Shown piece after piece: positions 11,069 through 19,422 of a DNA stretch of 22,885 nucleotides. The translations under genes were made by a program, and so were the position numbers. The first letter of the stretch is position 1; each line of letters starts with the position of its first letter. Under the pieces are notes generated by a model. That model had not been told where the DNA came from. It did no database searches and saw nothing but the letters and a program-made list of their open reading frames with translations. Source of the DNA: a virus; IMG/VR virus record IMGVR_UViG_3300030202_003192, positions 1 to 22,885 of that record. One strand, 5' to 3'.

Positions 11069-11314
11069 AGTTTACCCCTTATACAGCATTTTTATCAAAA
11101 TTAAAATTTTTACCTTTTTTCCCCCGCGCGCGATACCAGGAAGGTTTGAAATGTTACCTGTTACCTGAAGAATTGTCTCTCAGGTAACACAATAAGTAAC
11201 ACTTTTTTGTATGTTTTCTGCATGTTGTAGCCAAATGTTACCTGTGTTACCTCATATTTGAGCAAAAAGTAAAAAAATATTTTTTTCAAAATAATTACTT
11301 ATATAGAGAGAACT
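11069..11314. other. Noncoding region upstream of terS with TGTTACCTG cluster
   Basis: About 246 bases with no gene seen. The part next to terS has a T-rich tract and an alternating CGCGCGCG run (11125-11132). The centre has the TGTTACCTG motif in several copies and a 10-bp inverted repeat. The far end is very AT-rich, with AAAAAAATATTTTTTTC near 11271. It probably carries the promoter and control sites for the terS operon. Confidence 0.5.
11152..11252. promoter_or_regulatory. Cluster of TGTTACCTG motifs with a 10-bp inverted repeat
   Basis: TGTTACCTG occurs at 11152-11160, 11159-11167 and 11236-11244, with TGTTACCTC at 11245-11253, and in reverse at 11181-11189. Copies 11159 and 11181 extend into the perfect arms TGTTACCTGA and TCAGGTAACA around an 11-base loop. 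The two tandem pairs with one inverted copy look like an operator array; a structured leader RNA for terS is also possible. Confidence 0.5.
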
Positions 11315-11521
11315 TTAAAATACCTTTGGATCATCAGTTATAGGCATTATTTCTGTTATTTTCTTTAATGCTTTAACACCTTGACCAACAATATATTCCC
11401 ACTCTTGTTGACTATAAATTTTTTTAACATCATCCCAAAATGTGACATGAACTTTATTACAATCCGGGCAAGTAAAAACTTCCCTAATCGGACTTCGGGG
11501 TAAATGTGAGGACGTTACCAT
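11315..11521 (-). CDS. Hypothetical 68-aa protein with one CxxC
   Basis: ATG 11521 is preceded by AAAGGAGAGAC, a strong site that fixes the start although it overlaps the gene before by 38 bases. The product has REVFTCPDCNKVHVTFWDD at 13-31, half of a zinc ribbon (Cys18, Cys21) with a following His, then a helical part (YSQQEWEYIVGQGVKALKKI). A single CxxC would bind metal only as a dimer or with the nearby His. No family recognised. It is the last gene before the noncoding region upstream of terS. Confidence 0.6.
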   Translation of the reverse strand: MVTSSHLPRSPIREVFTCPDCNKVHVTFWDDVKKIYSQQEWEYIVGQGVKALKKITEIMPITDDPKVF

Positions 11522-11690
11522 GTCTCTCCTTTAATTTTTTATTAATATATTTAGAAGCTGCTTGATGATCTATAAATTTAAATTCATTAATTAGGAGGGT
11601 GCACCTGGAGGAAAAATCATTAGGTGCTAACCCCTCCAATAAGTGATCAATGACATTAGCTTGCGCTTCCAGTAAAATATCATCACTCAT
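11484..11690 (-). CDS. Hypothetical 68-aa acidic helical protein
   Basis: The frame is open from an ATG at 11711, but GAGGAG sits 6 bases before the ATG at 11690, while nothing like a ribosome binding site precedes 11711; I therefore start at 11690 (MSDDILLEAQANVIDHLLEG). The product is helical with an acidic N-terminal half and a basic C-terminal half (AASKYINKKLKERHGN). No family recognised. It overlaps the next gene by 38 bases. Confidence 0.55.
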   Translation of the reverse strand: MSDDILLEAQANVIDHLLEGLAPNDFSSRCTLLINEFKFIDHQAASKYINKKLKERHGNVLTFTPKSD

Positions 11691-11780
11691 AAACTGCTCC
11701 TCAGCCACCATATCGGTTCAGCCATATAACAGTCTTAATTGTATACCTGAAAAGTTACAAGTACACAATAACTTATAACG

Positions 11781-11824
11781 AGGTGTAGACGAAGTGAAAA
11801 AGAATAAAAACTCCGTCTACACCT
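11781..11824. terminator. 11-bp perfect stem-loop after the zinc-knuckle gene
   Basis: AGGTGTAGACG (11781-11791) and CGTCTACACCT (11814-11824) pair perfectly, and two more pairs extend the stem after one mismatch. The loop is A-rich on the plus strand (T-rich on the minus strand). It lies ~70 bases beyond the zinc-knuckle stop and ~90 bases before the next gene. No classical T-run follows on either side, so it may be a processing site or RNA end-protector rather than a plain terminator. Confidence 0.45.
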
Positions 11825-11892
11825 ATAATTTTATACTAAACTTTTAAAAAGGTATAGGTTTTCCTTTTTGCCAACTAACCACGGGACACGGA

Positions 11893-12081
11893 TCAATGAA
11901 TTTGCTTCTTTTCTTTTTGCTCTTGAACCACGGATCGCGGTACACGTCGAACCCAAATTTCTCCCTCGCTCTCGCACGTTTGACATTGCTGTGTGGCTTT
12001 TTCAGTTTCGAACGTAAGACGAATATACCCATTACCCTTGCACGCGGGACACGGTTTCTTGGTCAAATCCTCTAACTTCAT
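11893..12081 (-). CDS. Small zinc-knuckle protein (DnaJ-type CxxCxGxG)
   Basis: ATG 12081 follows TTTGGAGAAGAT, a good ribosome binding site. The 62-aa product begins MKLEDLTKKPCPACKGNGYI: CxxCxGxG at 11-18 and QCQTCESEGEI (CxxCxxxG) at about 33-40 form one zinc-binding pair like half of the DnaJ cysteine-rich domain. The C-terminus is basic and polar. Small stand-alone proteins of this type are common in phages, with unknown targets. It overlaps the preceding 66-aa gene by 50 bases. A second open frame overlapping this one (11844-12032) lacks these features and is not called. Confidence 0.65.
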   Translation of the reverse strand: MKLEDLTKKPCPACKGNGYIRLTFETEKATQQCQTCESEGEIWVRRVPRSVVQEQKEKKQIH

Positions 12082-12232
12082 ATCTTCTCCAAACTATTAT
12101 TCTCAATCGTTCCCATAACAATCGATCGGCGACTTCGCGCGCAGTACGGGGCTCCCGTACGGCTTTTTTACTAATCTTCCCCAGTGCAGCACGTAAACAT
12201 TTTTCTATATTCTTGTTTTTCTTGCTTGCCAC
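12032..12232 (-). CDS. Hypothetical basic 66-aa protein
   Basis: The start is GTG at 12232 with GGAG seven bases upstream, inside the end of the single-TM gene (28-base overlap). The product is very basic: MASKKNKNIEKCLRAALGKI, then EPRTAREVADRLLWERLRII, a helix with a Trp/Arg patch, ending QETVSRVQG. It might bind nucleic acid. No family recognised. The 50-base overlap with the following zinc-knuckle gene and the GTG start lower the certainty. Confidence 0.45.
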   Translation of the reverse strand: MASKKNKNIEKCLRAALGKISKKAVREPRTAREVADRLLWERLRIIVWRRYEVRGFDQETVSRVQG

Positions 12233-12372
12233 TCTAGATCTCCATCACGTACACCTTTATTATATTCCTCTTCCAGGCGAGCTTCATATATTCGTCGTAT
12301 GCGCCATTTTGCTAAAAGATATCCTAAAACAAATACTCCAACTAACCATCCGAAATAAATAAAATTACTCAT
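12205..12372 (-). CDS. Small single-TM protein (55 aa)
   Basis: The ATG at 12372 sits in an 8-base overlap with the end of the preceding gene, with AGAGG about seven bases upstream. The 55-aa product has one membrane helix right at the N-terminus (IYFGWLVGVFVLGYLLA, residues 5-21), then a basic stop-transfer stretch KWRIRRIYEAR and a charged cytoplasmic tail (EEEYNKGVRDGDLEWQARK). This N-out/C-in layout resembles small phage membrane proteins of unknown role. It links two otherwise unconnected genes, which supports it. Confidence 0.6.
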   Translation of the reverse strand: MSNFIYFGWLVGVFVLGYLLAKWRIRRIYEARLEEEYNKGVRDGDLEWQARKTRI

Positions 12373-12580
12373 CAACTGCCTCTACTAGCTCTGAAAAAAT
12401 TTTAAAAGCTGCTGGGTTAGAATAAAATAATCTATTTAATGTTCGGTCACGTAACTTTCTTGGTGCGTACTTAATTATAAAGATAACTGTGCGTTGTGGT
12501 TTGCGTAAAACTTTATCAAAATAAATACGCACAATACTAAACCACATCCAAAACAAATAATTTTTTATATGTTCTTTCAT
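12365..12580 (-). CDS. Hypothetical 71-aa basic protein with hydrophobic N-terminus
   Basis: The ATG at 12580 overlaps the stop of the ribbon-helix-helix-like gene as ATGA, and AAAGG lies 9 bases upstream. The product begins MKEHIKNYLFWMWFSIVRIY, an aromatic hydrophobic helix that could be membrane-associated, then has a basic middle (RKPQRTVIFIIKYAPRKLRD) and an acidic end (FSELVEAVDE). No family recognised. It lies in a chain of at least seven small overlapping genes. Confidence 0.55.
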   Translation of the reverse strand: MKEHIKNYLFWMWFSIVRIYFDKVLRKPQRTVIFIIKYAPRKLRDRTLNRLFYSNPAAFKIFSELVEAVDE

Positions 12581-12753
12581 TTAGGTAAACCTTTCCTTTT
12601 ACCGCGTTTATTTTCGTTCTCTTCTTCGAACTCAACTAATTGCTCAATATACTTTGTTATTGATTGATACCTTGCTTTAGCTAATTTTTTTAGCCGTGCA
12701 TGCACATCATGCCTTACAGCAATCGTTGAGTAGGGTGAGTTTGATTTATTCAT
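12577..12753 (-). CDS. Ribbon-helix-helix-like small DNA-binding protein (58 aa)
   Basis: ATG 12753 follows AAAAGGAGAAAA, a strong ribosome binding site, and overlaps the DUF3310 gene by 8 bases. The product reads STIAVRHDVHARLKKLAKAR, then YQSITKYIEQLVEFEEENEN: a short beta strand (STIAVRHD), helix A (VHARLKKLAKAR), a turn, and helix B (ITKYIEQLVEFEE). This is the order of Arc/CopG-like ribbon-helix-helix domains, which bind DNA as dimers and often regulate their own operon. The tail is basic (KRGKRKGLPK). A likely target would be one of the repeated motifs in the nearby gaps, but that is a guess. Confidence 0.6.
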   Translation of the reverse strand: MNKSNSPYSTIAVRHDVHARLKKLAKARYQSITKYIEQLVEFEEENENKRGKRKGLPK

Positions 12754-12955
12754 TTTTCTCCTTTTGTTTAATTAATTTATTTAAATACCATTTAGCTTTT
12801 TTTAAATCTTCAATGCCATTCTTTGATTTATATCTAGAAATATACTTAACAATATTCCCTTCTAAAAAACCCATGTCATATTCAATAATAAAATCAGTTA
12901 CTTGAATTTTTTTTCTATAGTAAGACGGATTTATTTTATCTTGTTCACGGGACAC
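12746..12955 (-). CDS. DUF3310-like protein
   Basis: The 69-aa product reads INPSYYRKKIQVTDFIIEYD, MGFLEGNIVKYISRYKSKNG, IEDLKKAKWYLNKLIKQKEK. The pattern of PxHY-like start (here NPSYY), 'F...GN.vKYi.Ry..KnG.eDL.Ka.wYl..l' is the DUF3310 phage family, sometimes labelled as a nucleotide-kinase-like protein; its activity is not established to my knowledge. The expected His of PxHY is replaced by Tyr. The start is GTG at 12955, with AGGAG ten bases upstream inside the end of the gene before (11-base overlap). Confidence 0.8.
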   Translation of the reverse strand: MSREQDKINPSYYRKKIQVTDFIIEYDMGFLEGNIVKYISRYKSKNGIEDLKKAKWYLNKLIKQKEKNE

Positions 12956-13145
12956 GGCGCATGAGCTCCTGTAGTTTATGAAAAAAGATTATTCTAAATT
13001 CAATATCTTCAGCACCTAACATCGCATTAATGAGATTCTGTTGGCGTCTTAAAAATAATTCTTCAGTCATCGGCAACGGCTGATAATCAACCGTTGGACC
13101 TGGATGAATAGAATTTATTCCTGACTGCCATCCTATAACAACCAT
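12945..13145 (-). CDS. Hypothetical 66-aa protein
   Basis: ATG 13145 has GGGGAGGTTTCGA upstream, a strong site that lies inside the end of the 44-aa membrane-protein gene. The product starts MVVIGWQSGINSIHPGPTVD and continues with a helical part (TEELFLRRQQNLINAMLGAE and FRIIFFHKLQELMRRV). No family recognised. It couples to the DUF3310 gene by overlap. Confidence 0.55.
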   Translation of the reverse strand: MVVIGWQSGINSIHPGPTVDYQPLPMTEELFLRRQQNLINAMLGAEDIEFRIIFFHKLQELMRRVP

Positions 13146-13267
13146 TCGAAACCTCCCCTACTCCAAACGATCCAAAAACCAAACAACAATGCAAAAAGCA
13201 AAGTGTTTTTGTAGAGAACTATTCCCGCTATTAATATGATAGCTATTACTCCATGTAACATTGTCAT
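13133..13267 (-). CDS. Small membrane protein, 44 aa, one long or two short helices
   Basis: ATG 13267 is preceded by AAAGGAGTTACGT, the standard leader of this genome. The product is MTMLHGVIAIILIAGIVLYK followed by NTLLFALLFGFWIVWSRGGF: two hydrophobic segments (residues 6-19 and 22-36) separated by a Lys-Asn turn, then a basic end. It might be a hairpin membrane peptide. It overlaps the next gene by 13 bases. The four TATAACT repeats lie just upstream. Confidence 0.6.
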   Translation of the reverse strand: MTMLHGVIAIILIAGIVLYKNTLLFALLFGFWIVWSRGGFEWLL

Positions 13268-13287
13268 ACGTAACTCCTTTCAACGGG

Positions 13288-15034: not shown

Positions 15035-15622
15035 ATGCCCAAAGATTTAGATTCTATATTTGACACACTTTCGACACAGGCTGTTGATCAAAAATTAAAA
15101 GAACTCGACGGAGAAGGCTTATCAGACATTGGGGCTCTTTGTAAAAAATTAGTAGAAACAAAAGAACAAAAACAATTACATGAAAAAGCTGCTGAAGAAG
15201 CAACGCAAGAAATACAAAATTTAAGCGCAACAATTGGCACATACTTAAAAGAAAAAAATTTAACGTCTTTAAAATTAACTGATGGTAGTCTTGTTGAATA
15301 CGATGAAAAGTTAAGAGCAAATATAAAAAGAGAAAATACACATAAAGCATATGAATTCATACGGTCACTGGGCGCTGGTGATCTAATTAAGAACGAAATA
15401 AAAATGCAATTTGGTAAAGGCCAAGATGAAGATGCAGAAAAGTTTCGTGAATTTTTAATTAGTAAAGGTCTTCTTCCGCAAGAGAAGCAAGGCGTAGCTT
15501 GGAATACTCTCGATGCATGGTGCAGAGAGACAATCGAACAGTATGCAAGAGATGGTAAAACTTTTCCTGAAGAACTGTTCGGAATTTTTCGTTATCACAA
15601 CGTAAAAATAAAAAATAAATAG
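15035..15622 (+). CDS. Coiled-coil protein, first gene of the replication operon (195 aa)
   Basis: ATG 15035 follows TAAGGAGTTACG. The N-terminal third is a long charged helix (residues ~14-75, with KKLVETKEQKQLHEKAAEEA) typical of a coiled coil. A short beta part, LKLTDGSLVEYDEKLRANI, comes next, then KAYEFIRSLGAGDLIKNEIK and a C-terminal WNTLDAWCRETIEQYARDGK. I have the impression of a family seen beside ssDNA-binding proteins in marine phages, but I cannot name it. It lies 8 bases before the next gene, so the two form one unit. A role in replication or recombination is inferred from position. Confidence 0.65.
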   Translation: MPKDLDSIFDTLSTQAVDQKLKELDGEGLSDIGALCKKLVETKEQKQLHEKAAEEATQEIQNLSATIGTYLKEKNLTSLKLTDGSLVEYDEKLRANIKRENTHKAYEFIRSLGAGDLIKNEIKMQFGKGQDEDAEKFREFLISKGLLPQEKQGVAWNTLDAWCRETIEQYARDGKTFPEELFGIFRYHNVKIKNK

Positions 15623-15630
15623 GGGGTCGT

Positions 15631-16476
15631 ATGGCTAAAAACGAAGTAGCTACAAAAAAGAAAACAGAGGTAGCAATAAATGATGATGCACTAGATCTTA
15701 TAGTGCAAAACTTAGGTGACGGATTAAGTAATGTTACCACACAAGATATATTAATTCCTAGGTTTCAAATTTTACAACCAATGTCACCAGAAGTAAGTGA
15801 TAAAACTGTAAAAAATAATAGACCAGGAAATATTATTAATAAAGCAAACAAAGAAACTTTTGATGGAGACACAGGTATACGTGTAATTCCATGTGAGTTT
15901 TATAGAAATTATGTAGAGTGGGAAAAACGAGGGCAAGGTACAAGTAAAGCACCTGTCAACGTTCATCCAGCTACGTCGGATGTCATGTCAAAGACTAAAA
16001 GAGATCCGAATGATAATTTAAATTATTTACCAAATGGTAATTATGTTGATGAAGTAGCAAATCATTTAGTTGTTGTACTAGATGAAGATGATCTACCTTT
16101 ATCTAAAGCAATGATTACAATGAAAGTTTCGCAAATGAAGAAAAGTAGAATGTGGTTGTATATGCAAAAAACAGCCATTTTAAAAGTTGGAGAAAGAGTT
16201 ATTCAAAATCCACCAAGCTACAGCTTCGTTTATAATCTAACTTCTACTTTAGAGTCATCTGGCGGTAATCCCGTACATGGATGGGTTATTGAGAGAGAAG
16301 GTATGGTTAAGAAAAAAGAAACCTTAGAACAGTGCATCAGCTTTGCTAAATCTTTCCAAGAGGGAGATGTTGGCGTAGCTGCTGACCATGATGAAGAACA
16401 ATCTAATAGTTCTGACTCTATGGTTGATGTTACTCCCACAGAAGAAAAAGAAGAAGTAACGGGCGTAAAGTTTTAA
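15631..16476 (+). CDS. Acidic-tailed protein, candidate ssDNA-binding protein (281 aa)
   Basis: ATG 15631 follows ATAGGGGGTCGT. The first 20 residues are polar and basic. A compact middle follows with DILIPRFQILQPMSPEV at 40-56, RPGNIINKANKETFDGDTGI at about 64-83, VIPCEFYRNYVEWEKRG at 85-101, HLVVVLDEDDLPLSKAMITM, and NPPSYSFVYNLTSTLE. The last ~30 residues are Ser, Asp and Glu-rich and end VTPTEEKEEVTGVKF, that is, an acidic tail with a terminal aromatic residue, as in many ssDNA-binding proteins. Position directly before primase, helicase and polymerase agrees. The exact family is not recognised and the role is inferred. Confidence 0.6.
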   Translation: MAKNEVATKKKTEVAINDDALDLIVQNLGDGLSNVTTQDILIPRFQILQPMSPEVSDKTVKNNRPGNIINKANKETFDGDTGIRVIPCEFYRNYVEWEKRGQGTSKAPVNVHPATSDVMSKTKRDPNDNLNYLPNGNYVDEVANHLVVVLDEDDLPLSKAMITMKVSQMKKSRMWLYMQKTAILKVGERVIQNPPSYSFVYNLTSTLESSGGNPVHGWVIEREGMVKKKETLEQCISFAKSFQEGDVGVAADHDEEQSNSSDSMVDVTPTEEKEEVTGVKF

Positions 16477-16630: not shown

Positions 16631-18136
16631 ATGTTTAACAGATTTAAAAATTTATTTGCGGGTTTAGAAAGAGCGCATGGTCAATATGTGGCTGGTGAAC
16701 TTGACGAAAAAGGAAAAAAGGGTGGTAAAGCTTTTATTAAAAAAGCAATTGTTACAGATACCCTTTGGGAAAATCACTTACTTGGTAAAGATCCAAGTCT
16801 TGGCATTGTGCCTATTAACGATGATAGCGCTTGTAAATGGGGTTGCATTGATGTTGACACCTACCCTATTGATCATCAATCTATTGTTGATGAAATAAAA
16901 AAATTAGAATTACCTTTAATTGTTTGTCGATCTAAAAGTGGCGGTGCTCACATTTTTGTTTTTACACAAGAATTTGTGCCTGCAAAATTATTAAGATCTA
17001 AATTAATTGAATGGGCCGCGGATCTCGGTCATGCAGACACAGAAGTTTTTCCAAAACAAATTAGTCTTAACACCGAACGAGGAGACGTAGGTAACTTTTT
17101 AAACTTACCTTACTTTGGTGGGGATGAATCTTTTCGATATGCATTTGCAGAGGATGGTTCCAGTCTTACCCTTGAACAATTTTTAGATGCAGCAGAAAAA
17201 ATATCAATCACTAAAGAACAATTATCTAGAAAAAAAGCAAAGAGAGAAACGAATAAAGAATTAGACGATGGTCCACCTTGTCTTCAAACATTAATGGCAA
17301 TGGGTATATCTGAAGGAGGTAGAGATCAAGTTTTGTATCAGTACGCCGTGTATGCAAAAAAAGCTTTTCCAGATAATTGGCAAACAAAAATTGGTAAATT
17401 TAATTATCAATACTTTGAACCAGAGTTATCAATAGAACAAGTTAATAAAACAATTAAGCAACATGAAAAACAAGATTATCAATACAAGTGTAAAGATCAA
17501 CCAATGTGTTCAGTGTGTAATCCTGTGCAATGTAAATTACGTAAACATGGTATTGGTTCAGCCTATCAACATCAATTAACAGACTTACAAAAGTTAGAAA
17601 GTGATGAGCCAGTTTGGTTTTTAAATGTTGATGGTAAACGTATCGAATTAGATACAGATACTTTGTATGATCAAAATAGATTTAGAAAAAAATGTATGGA
17701 TGTTTTAACAGAGTTACCACCACGAATGAAAGAAGTTGACTGGGCAGCTAAAATAAATTTTTTATTAGAAAGCTGCGATATCATTCCAATGCCAAAAGAA
17801 ATTAGTAAGCAAGGTAGATTTGATGAGCACCTTAGATCTTTCATGCGTGAGAATGGTGAAGCATTATCTATTGATGAAGTTTTAATTGATAAAGTTTTTA
17901 CAGATAAAGAAGATATATCTTGGTTTACATTAAGCGCCCTGGAAACGTTTTTAAAATCAAGAAAATTTACGGAGTATAACGAAACACAAATCTGTGGACG
18001 TATACGAGAACTTGAAGGAGGAAGTAAAAAGAAAAGAGTCAAAGGTGCATTGGAACACTTATGGTACATGCCCGCAATTAATTTTGATAGTCAACCTTTA
18101 CCAACGAAAGATTTAATAGATGAAGTACCATTTTAA
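16631..18136 (+). CDS. Archaeo-eukaryotic-type (AEP) DNA primase
   Basis: The 501-aa product makes primers for phage replication. CIDVDTY at 72-78 holds the DxD metal site (Asp74, Asp76), SKSGGAHIFVF at 101-111 is the SxH-type nucleotide-binding motif (His107), and HADTEVFPKQ at 134-143 with LNLPYFGG at 157-164 closes the AEP fold, as in the primase modules of TOTE-like elements and many phages. CKDQPMCSVCNPVQC (Cys287, 293, 296, 301) is a zinc site after it. The C-terminal ~190 residues are helical, probably a primase C-terminal or DNA-binding domain. ATG 16631 follows ATAAGGGGTCAAAA. No DnaB-type helicase is fused or nearby; the UvrD-like protein may fill that place. Confidence 0.82.
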   Translation: MFNRFKNLFAGLERAHGQYVAGELDEKGKKGGKAFIKKAIVTDTLWENHLLGKDPSLGIVPINDDSACKWGCIDVDTYPIDHQSIVDEIKKLELPLIVCRSKSGGAHIFVFTQEFVPAKLLRSKLIEWAADLGHADTEVFPKQISLNTERGDVGNFLNLPYFGGDESFRYAFAEDGSSLTLEQFLDAAEKISITKEQLSRKKAKRETNKELDDGPPCLQTLMAMGISEGGRDQVLYQYAVYAKKAFPDNWQTKIGKFNYQYFEPELSIEQVNKTIKQHEKQDYQYKCKDQPMCSVCNPVQCKLRKHGIGSAYQHQLTDLQKLESDEPVWFLNVDGKRIELDTDTLYDQNRFRKKCMDVLTELPPRMKEVDWAAKINFLLESCDIIPMPKEISKQGRFDEHLRSFMRENGEALSIDEVLIDKVFTDKEDISWFTLSALETFLKSRKFTEYNETQICGRIRELEGGSKKKRVKGALEHLWYMPAINFDSQPLPTKDLIDEVPF

Positions 18137-18193: not shown

Positions 18194-18457
18194 ATGAAAC
18201 TATCAAAAGAAATGTACAATTACATTTTAGAATGCATTGCTTTAGAAGATAATAATTGGAGAGATGACAATCATACTTATCTACCAATGAAAGAAGAAGC
18301 TACCAAATGGATTAAAGCTGTTTGGGAGAAACAAGAAAAAGGTAAATTAAAAAAACTAAAAGACTTAAAACCTGGAGAGGGTTCTTCTAAATTATTAGAT
18401 CCGAAAAAAAAATTAGAAGAGTGGTATGCTAAAAACAATGTGAAGATAGGTATATGA
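18194..18457 (+). CDS. Hypothetical 87-aa protein before the methyltransferase
   Basis: ATG 18194 follows AAAGGAGTTCAA. The product is Lys-rich and helical (LSKEMYNYILECIALEDNNW, then EEATKWIKAVWEKQEKGKLK) with a loop KPGEGSSKLLDPKKK and a short last helix. No family recognised. Its stop overlaps the methyltransferase ATG by four bases (ATGA), so the two are translated together. Confidence 0.6.
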   Translation: MKLSKEMYNYILECIALEDNNWRDDNHTYLPMKEEATKWIKAVWEKQEKGKLKKLKDLKPGEGSSKLLDPKKKLEEWYAKNNVKIGI

Positions 18458-19422
18458 AATTAAAACACTTAGATTTATTTAGTGGTATTGGTGGCTTCAG
18501 TTTAGGACTAGAAGCCACTGGTGGTTTTGAAACAGTAGCGTTTTGTGATATTGATAAATATTCTAAAAAGGTTTTAAAAAAGCAATGGCCAAACGTTAAA
18601 CAATATGAAGATATAAAGGAGTTAAATTATGAAAGACTTAAAACAGATGGAATTGGGCCTATCGACATCATCACAGGTGGATACCCTTGCCAACCTTTCT
18701 CCATCGCAGGTAGAAAAAAAGGTGAAGAAGATCCGAGACACCTCTGGCCAGAGTATTTTAGACTTATCAAAGAACTCAGACCGTCTTGGGTTATTGGAGA
18801 AAACGTTAGTGGACACATTAAACTCGGTCTCGACACCGTACTCGAGAACTTGGAAAGTGAAGGTTACTCCGCAAGGACATTTAGTATTTCAGCTTCGAGC
18901 GTCGGTGCAAAACACCAAAGAGAAAGAATCTGGATTGTGGCGAACGCCAGACAACATGGCGGGCGGATCGAACCTGCCGGGAATTCAGAAGGCACTGGAC
19001 GCGGGTCACTTGAAACGACCGAGCGGTCAGCAGATACAGATACGATTAGCCGATCAAGTGAGGGAGAAGAGACTTTGGCCAACTCCGTTGAACTCGGATT
19101 GGAAAAACATGGACACAGCGAAACAACAGAGTCTATCAAAAGAGGCGAAACTATGGCCGACACCAACGTCGAGGGACGGCAAGGGAGGATATATAGGGGG
19201 CAGAATAAGGAATGGGAAAGTCAGCAGAGATACTTTGGACGTAACAGTGCAGCACACGGACAACAAGAACAAAACTGGTGGGACACTGAACCCGAACTGG
19301 GTAGAGTGGCTCATGGGATACCCAATAGGGTGGACAGACTTAAAGGACTAGGAAATAGTTTGGTACCACAAATACCTTACTTCATCGCGCAATCAATTTT
19401 ACAAGTGGAGGAACAATGTTAA
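18454..19422 (+). CDS. DNA (cytosine-5) methyltransferase, phage type
   Basis: This enzyme methylates cytosine at C5 in a specific DNA site, usually to protect phage DNA from host restriction. Motif I is DLFSGIGGFSLG (7-18), motif IV GGYPCQPFSIAG (75-86) with catalytic Cys79, motif VI ENVSG (116-120), motif VIII QRERIW (155-160) and motif X LGNSLVPQI (299-307). The target-recognition part (~165-280) is short, hydrophilic and low in aromatic residues, and most of it overlaps the end of a second open frame (18629-19351). The 322-aa length is at the short end for the family. It overlaps the helicase gene by 7 bases. No partner restriction enzyme is seen, so it is probably an orphan protective enzyme. 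Confidence 0.92.
   Translation: MKLKHLDLFSGIGGFSLGLEATGGFETVAFCDIDKYSKKVLKKQWPNVKQYEDIKELNYERLKTDGIGPIDIITGGYPCQPFSIAGRKKGEEDPRHLWPEYFRLIKELRPSWVIGENVSGHIKLGLDTVLENLESEGYSARTFSISASSVGAKHQRERIWIVANARQHGGRIEPAGNSEGTGRGSLETTERSADTDTISRSSEGEETLANSVELGLEKHGHSETTESIKRGETMADTNVEGRQGRIYRGQNKEWESQQRYFGRNSAAHGQQEQNWWDTEPELGRVAHGIPNRVDRLKGLGNSLVPQIPYFIAQSILQVEEQC
18629..19351 (+). CDS. Second protein encoded inside the methyltransferase gene (240 aa)
   Basis: This frame is entirely inside the methyltransferase gene in another reading phase. It starts at ATG 18629 behind AAAGGAG with 7-base spacing, as strong as any ribosome binding site here. The product has a Ser/Thr-rich first third, then TPYSRTWKVKVTPQGHLVFQ at about residues 69-88, SGLWRTPDNMAGGSNLP, a repeated LWPTP (two copies, the second LWPTPTSRDGKGGYIGG), and a C-terminus reading TLNPNWVEWLMGYPIGWTD before LKD. 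I associate the LWPTPT.RD and NP.WVEWLMG.P.GWTD motifs with a recurring phage protein family that also occurs near cytosine methyltransferases. Whether it works alone or with the methyltransferase is unknown. It could be conserved only because the host frame is, but the binding site and motifs argue for translation. Confidence 0.65.
   Translation: MKDLKQMELGLSTSSQVDTLANLSPSQVEKKVKKIRDTSGQSILDLSKNSDRLGLLEKTLVDTLNSVSTPYSRTWKVKVTPQGHLVFQLRASVQNTKEKESGLWRTPDNMAGGSNLPGIQKALDAGHLKRPSGQQIQIRLADQVREKRLWPTPLNSDWKNMDTAKQQSLSKEAKLWPTPTSRDGKGGYIGGRIRNGKVSRDTLDVTVQHTDNKNKTGGTLNPNWVEWLMGYPIGWTDLKD

Follow-up and report, generated by a model that had tools for sequence, protein, structure and literature searches.

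Does the long reading frame nested inside a phage cytosine methyltransferase gene encode a protein, and if so, what would this protein contribute to the enzyme? In the window, i.e. the whole 22,885-nucleotide stretch of viral DNA that was analysed, the methyltransferase ORF (18454-19422) contains a second ORF at 18629-19351 on the same (+) strand, which starts with ATG, encodes 240 aa and lies in the +1 frame. This frame was found exactly as the original prediction had described it, with AAAGGAG at 18615-18621, seven bases 5' of the nested ATG, and both LWPTP motifs and the terminal NPNWVEWLMGYPIGWTD claimed for it are present. The start of the methyltransferase overlaps the stop of an upstream 87-aa ORF (ATGA at 18454-18457) and its 3' end overlaps the start of the next gene (19416), so that the genes look like one operon; the 87-aa ORF itself (18194-18457), which adjoins the methyltransferase 5' end, has no PHROG or Pfam match. 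We propose, with a probability of roughly 0.86, that a C5-cytosine DNA methyltransferase is encoded here in naturally split form: the long frame would provide an alpha subunit with motifs I-VIII and X and the nested frame a beta subunit that carries motif IX and the region for target recognition. The nested protein would thus most likely be the DNA-recognition half that the methyltransferase chain lacks. The features of the locus are as follows:

18454..19422, +, putative alpha subunit: C5-cytosine methyltransferase ORF, 322 aa, motifs I-VIII and X (PF00145, 1e-43; phrog_363, 2e-79; M.HhaI 12-174 and 296-319 aligned; AF2 model)
18454..18954, +, alpha catalytic large domain, residues 1-167 (AF2 pLDDT mostly 73-98 per 10-residue block; Foldseek M.HhaI 2.8e-14)
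18955..19353, +, alpha-frame spacer, residues 168-300, low complexity, without recognition domain (pLDDT <50 throughout; variable in alignment)
19342..19419, +, alpha motif X and C-terminal helix, GLGNSLVPQIPYFIAQSIL (LGN and VP nearly invariant; model helix 306-321, high confidence)
18615..18621, +, nested-gene ribosome binding site AAAGGAG (ATG with SD core common among relatives)
18629..19351, +, putative beta subunit: nested ORF, 240 aa, +1 frame (ORF, homology, shuffle and substitution tests)
18629..18943, +, beta N-terminal half over alpha motifs IV-VIII, both frames constrained (stop counts and substitution pattern)
18944..19351, +, beta C-terminal half, probable target-recognition region and motif IX (nested third position takes 60% of differences; in-frame equivalents in actinophage methyltransferases)
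19076..19087, +, first WPTP motif of beta
19154..19165, +, second WPTP motif of beta
19286..19336, +, motif IX-like end of beta, LNPNWVEWLMGYPIGWT (hhalign placement)

Both frames of the locus are protein-coding

Synonymous codons of the methyltransferase gene were permuted in 20,000 trials, with the encoded protein and the codon usage retained. The +1 frame at this locus stays open for up to 241 codons, while the longest run in the shuffled genes averaged 78 codons and never exceeded 219, with none of the 20,000 reaching the real run. For 86 non-redundant relatives, the observed +1 run was reached in 37 of 25,800 shuffles, and the +2 frame of these relatives was not longer than in synonymous shuffles. 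These results speak against a shadow ORF, i.e. a nested frame that is open merely through the sequence and codon usage of the methyltransferase. What such a reading can draw upon is that part of the similarity between beta N-terminal halves is forced by the conserved methyltransferase frame, with the profile of this half also matching the +1 frame of other methyltransferases. Cross-locus similarity of the N-terminal half was hence discarded as evidence, since the profile also matches methyltransferases without nesting, and the case for this half is based upon the stop and substitution tests described below.

Of the loci retrieved with the nested protein as query, 82 were examined (2 of them from annotated phages), and every one carries the nested frame at +1 inside a methyltransferase ORF. 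As this sample is biased towards the nested frame, the methyltransferase was also used as bait, and the same +1 frame was open in 80/80 viral loci. A profile scan of bacterial genomes gave 80 loci, with 78 nested at +1, one (L242) fused in frame and one (L238) with a shift; this count covers bacterial-genome loci, with the phage loci L251-L254 outside it, and includes L220 on the frame of motif X because its N-domain was undetected. The bacterial loci span Bacteroidota, Pseudomonadota, Verrucomicrobiota, Acidobacteriota, Bacillota, Chloroflexota, Nitrospirota, Synergistota, Planctomycetota and Spirochaetota, amongst others. Amongst annotated phages, 222 records match the nested protein at E 0.1, and in the records opened (N15, SEN5, RcMaeve, PhiXhv-18 and phiEc3) the match lies +1 to the annotated methyltransferase. 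The arrangement of two proteins on one stretch of DNA is maintained in phages and in prophages of many bacterial phyla and is rarely annotated: most phage records list the methyltransferase alone, although Shelly lists a 'g55 internal gene' and PhiXhv-18 also annotates the overlap. The nested protein matches phrog_1008 ('DNA methyltransferase') with an E-value of 1e-31 over residues 13-238; this family name is silent on nesting, while some member phages (again Shelly and PhiXhv-18) annotate overlapping genes. Our literature search, in which few subscription papers were covered, found no description of such nesting in phages. The comparison of stand-alone and nested homologues suggested with the original prediction was made: stand-alone homologues of beta are almost absent, nesting is the rule, and the family is almost never found without alpha. 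In three loci (L143, L147 and L151), nested ORFs of 440-499 codons lie in methyltransferase ORFs of 552-614 codons, which are unusually long same-strand overlaps.

In 54 of 83 non-redundant loci the nested frame begins at an ATG preceded by an SD core, compared to 22% for all out-of-frame ATGs in the same genes; this enrichment agrees with the earlier proposal that the second protein has a ribosome binding site of its own.

The frame under selection switches along the gene

Differences between 70 pairs of close relatives were counted by methyltransferase codon position (1/2/3), with methyltransferase position 1 corresponding to nested position 3. Since loci recur in several pairs, which are therefore not independent, the percentages are descriptive: 20/10/70% upstream of the nested gene, 38/15/47% across motifs IV-VIII, 60/19/21% in the recognition region (i.e. 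60% at the nested third position) and 18/8/74% after the nested stop. Comparing the window with its three closest relatives over the recognition region, the differences were 17/4/0. Stop codons in the +1 frame over motifs IV-VIII number 0.08 in the nested family against 2.8 expected, with 88 of 93 non-redundant loci stop-free (8.1 expected). For comparison we used 18 full-length cellular methyltransferases, since the Streptococcus-phage enzymes initially picked as control carry a +1 ORF of their own: these canonical enzymes have 4.8 stops each over motifs IV-VIII, the same as when shuffled, and 0/18 are stop-free. Identity at fourfold sites over motifs IV-VIII is 0.40 in the nested family, compared to 0.28 upstream, and in the 18 canonical cellular enzymes it is not above that of the upstream region. 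In the recognition stretch it is the alpha frame that remains stop-free, in 82/82 loci against 5.9 stops expected per locus under nested-synonymous shuffling, because alpha must be read through to motif X.

Together, the substitution and stop patterns show that constraint along the gene runs 0, both, +1, 0: the frame under selection switches from 0 to +1 and then back to 0. Change at synonymous sites of the methyltransferase frame is thus not free, which was the second check attached to the original prediction. With stops occurring at the shuffled rate in canonical methyltransferases and changes in the recognition region falling at nested third positions, we regard a shadow ORF as highly improbable, the substitution pattern being what refutes it. 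The claim that the two genes are overprinted stands in so far as there are two coding frames; the recognition region, on the other hand, is constrained in the nested frame, with the methyltransferase frame there being a stop-free spacer. That half is thus a split gene and not a pair of overprinted genes under equal constraint.

A candidate split enzyme and its alternatives

Alpha carries motifs I, IV (PCQ), VI (ENV), VIII and X and is a C5-cytosine methyltransferase as judged from PF00145, the alignment to M.HhaI and the invariant residues. It aligns to M.HhaI 12-174 and, weakly, to 296-319. The AF2 model of alpha is confident for residues 1-167, falls below a pLDDT of 50 for residues 168-300 (133 residues) and is confident again in the motif X helix. 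The target-recognition domain and motif IX are absent from the alpha chain, with residues 168-300 showing low pLDDT and a profile that matches no canonical methyltransferase; in the model, alpha is without a predicted small domain.

When compared with single-chain actinophage methyltransferases, the C-terminal half of beta matches their VIII-X segment collinearly and in a single frame. Mycobacterium phage Moonbeam gp69 runs without a change of frame from the methyltransferase N-domain through the beta C-terminal half to motif X. Ahead of its motif X lie an LLPTP segment and the sequence PEWMMGWPAGW, which resemble the beta C-terminal half; Papez gp46 has only the EWLMGLPRGW part of the beta-like end. 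Comparison by hhalign gave 96-97% probability for the beta C-terminal half against actinophage methyltransferases and placed the motif IX-like end at 96%. Against canonical methyltransferases, the best placement of beta was on motif IX LTPRECARLQGFPDTF and was marginal (P 0.016, probability 3%), the M.HhaI sequence at this position being PRECARVMGYPDSY. Likeness of beta to motif IX of canonical cellular enzymes thus appears marginal though correctly placed, and the strong link is via the actinophage enzymes. The conserved ends that had been noted in both frames fit these results.

Could beta instead act outside the enzyme, as a separate protein such as an anti-restriction or regulatory factor? 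Pfam and NCBIfam searches with beta returned no match and neither did a search of PDB sequences with its profile, so a recognised domain is lacking, and the N-terminal half has no equivalent in known methyltransferases. AF2 modelled beta on its own with low confidence (mean pLDDT 57, pTM 0.27) and the model gave no significant Foldseek match, hence we make no claim about its fold. Nevertheless, single-chain methyltransferases carry the beta C-terminal half in frame within their VIII-X segment, alpha is without exactly that part, and beta is almost never found without alpha, which makes an independent protein improbable. The anti-restriction partner that had been offered as one option found no support, while the other option, an enzyme plus specificity partner, fits the observation that the beta C-terminal half corresponds to the VIII-X segment of single-chain relatives that alpha lacks.

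A further alternative would retain the recognition region in the enzyme but deliver it differently: programmed frameshifting after motif VIII into the +1 frame would produce a fused chain (I-VIII, recognition region and IX) besides alpha. Natural in-frame fusions do exist, as in Paenibacillus macquariensis (L242) and in the actinophage single-chain forms. However, the nested frame is opened by a conserved ATG with SD core, and the nested N-terminal half, for which frameshifting has no use, is itself constrained; as the sole route, programmed frameshifting is unlikely.

In the split enzyme that we favour, the long frame would yield alpha, comprising the catalytic domain (I-VIII) and the C-terminal motif X joined by a flexible spacer and without a recognition domain. 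The ribosome binding site within alpha would start beta in the +1 frame, and beta would bring an N-terminal arm followed by the target-recognition region and motif IX, supplying the small domain. Both chains would assemble into one working enzyme, in which beta as specificity subunit would determine where the phage DNA is methylated, the likely benefit being protection from restriction.

In case of M.EcoHK31I, the small gene is reported to be nested in the large one in another frame. This enzyme, which recognises YGGCCR, consists of two polypeptides, with motifs I-VIII and X in alpha and motif IX in the smaller one; M.AquI (CYCGRG) is also a split C5-methyltransferase whose small subunit carries motif IX (PMC3404938). 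The phage locus shows the division of motifs for which M.EcoHK31I is the precedent, but in M.EcoHK31I the recognition domain is described in alpha, whereas in phage alpha the corresponding stretch is neither folded nor constrained and selection there acts in beta. Furthermore, M.EcoHK31I is part of a restriction-modification system, while here we have a phage gene, with no restriction partner among the neighbouring genes examined. The small subunit of M.AquI additionally holds motif X and half of the variable region, unlike the phage locus, which keeps X in alpha and so does not have the M.AquI layout. Nearer to that layout is Gordonia phage Upyo (L252:1108-2377), where gp54 (I-VIII) is adjacent to gp53 (WPTP-type region/beta C-terminal half, IX and X) and the +1 frame is open back through gp54.

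A very common phage enzyme that is usually annotated as one gene would thus probably consist of two subunits. A codon-optimised construct of the annotated frame alone would destroy beta and could yield a dead enzyme, and as beta is lost in such clones, specificities assigned in that way may be missing.

Origin of the nested family and other features of the window

In the N-domain tree, the in-frame actinophage forms group with the nested family, separately from canonical and Streptococcus-type enzymes, so that Moonbeam gp69 and Papez gp46 share their N-domain clade with alpha. The actinophage forms branch within the nested group, next to the nested L160 and L229, with supports of 0.84-0.88 in this midpoint-rooted tree; they are all in one frame and, in a small sample, without +1 constraint over motifs IV-VIII. 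Their position inside the nested group makes re-fusion from a nested ancestor appear the likelier direction, a point that is not settled. With its deeply conserved long same-strand overlap, a selected frame that switches twice and in-frame relatives, the family is a good test case for overlapping-gene origin and reversion. Tentatively, and on balance with some doubt, overlapping coding could be a recurrent design in phage C5-methyltransferases, comprising a large clade with a nested trans-acting specificity subunit and a separate Streptococcus-type lineage with a selected +1 product of its own; if true, the shared nested N-terminal half would have a function of its own.

Further arrangements were seen amongst these relatives. 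In L242 (3679-4611; Paenibacillus macquariensis), a frame change joins the methyltransferase N-domain to the beta C-terminal half and leaves motif X in another frame, giving a natural single chain without X. The Streptococcus-type methyltransferases (L164:1298-1717 from Streptococcus phage IPP54, and L287-L366) have a +1 ORF of ~140-165 aa over motifs IV-VIII that ends like SLSDILEEHVDEKYFLSEE, and in several of these enzymes motifs IX and X lie in the methyltransferase frame itself. This +1 ORF is stop-free in 7/7 non-redundant loci (~0.4 expected), with changes in the tail mostly at its third positions.

Elsewhere in the window, 16631-18136 encodes a primase in a phage replication operon that matches the TOTE conflict-system archaeo-eukaryotic primase domain (PF22548, 8e-13), and two adjoining genes at 15035-16476 match the Pam3 phage gp33-like and gp34-like families. 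On the minus strand, 11161-13283 is a stretch of ~2 kb without an ORF >80 aa, which holds a series of small overlapping ORFs of 42-75 aa.
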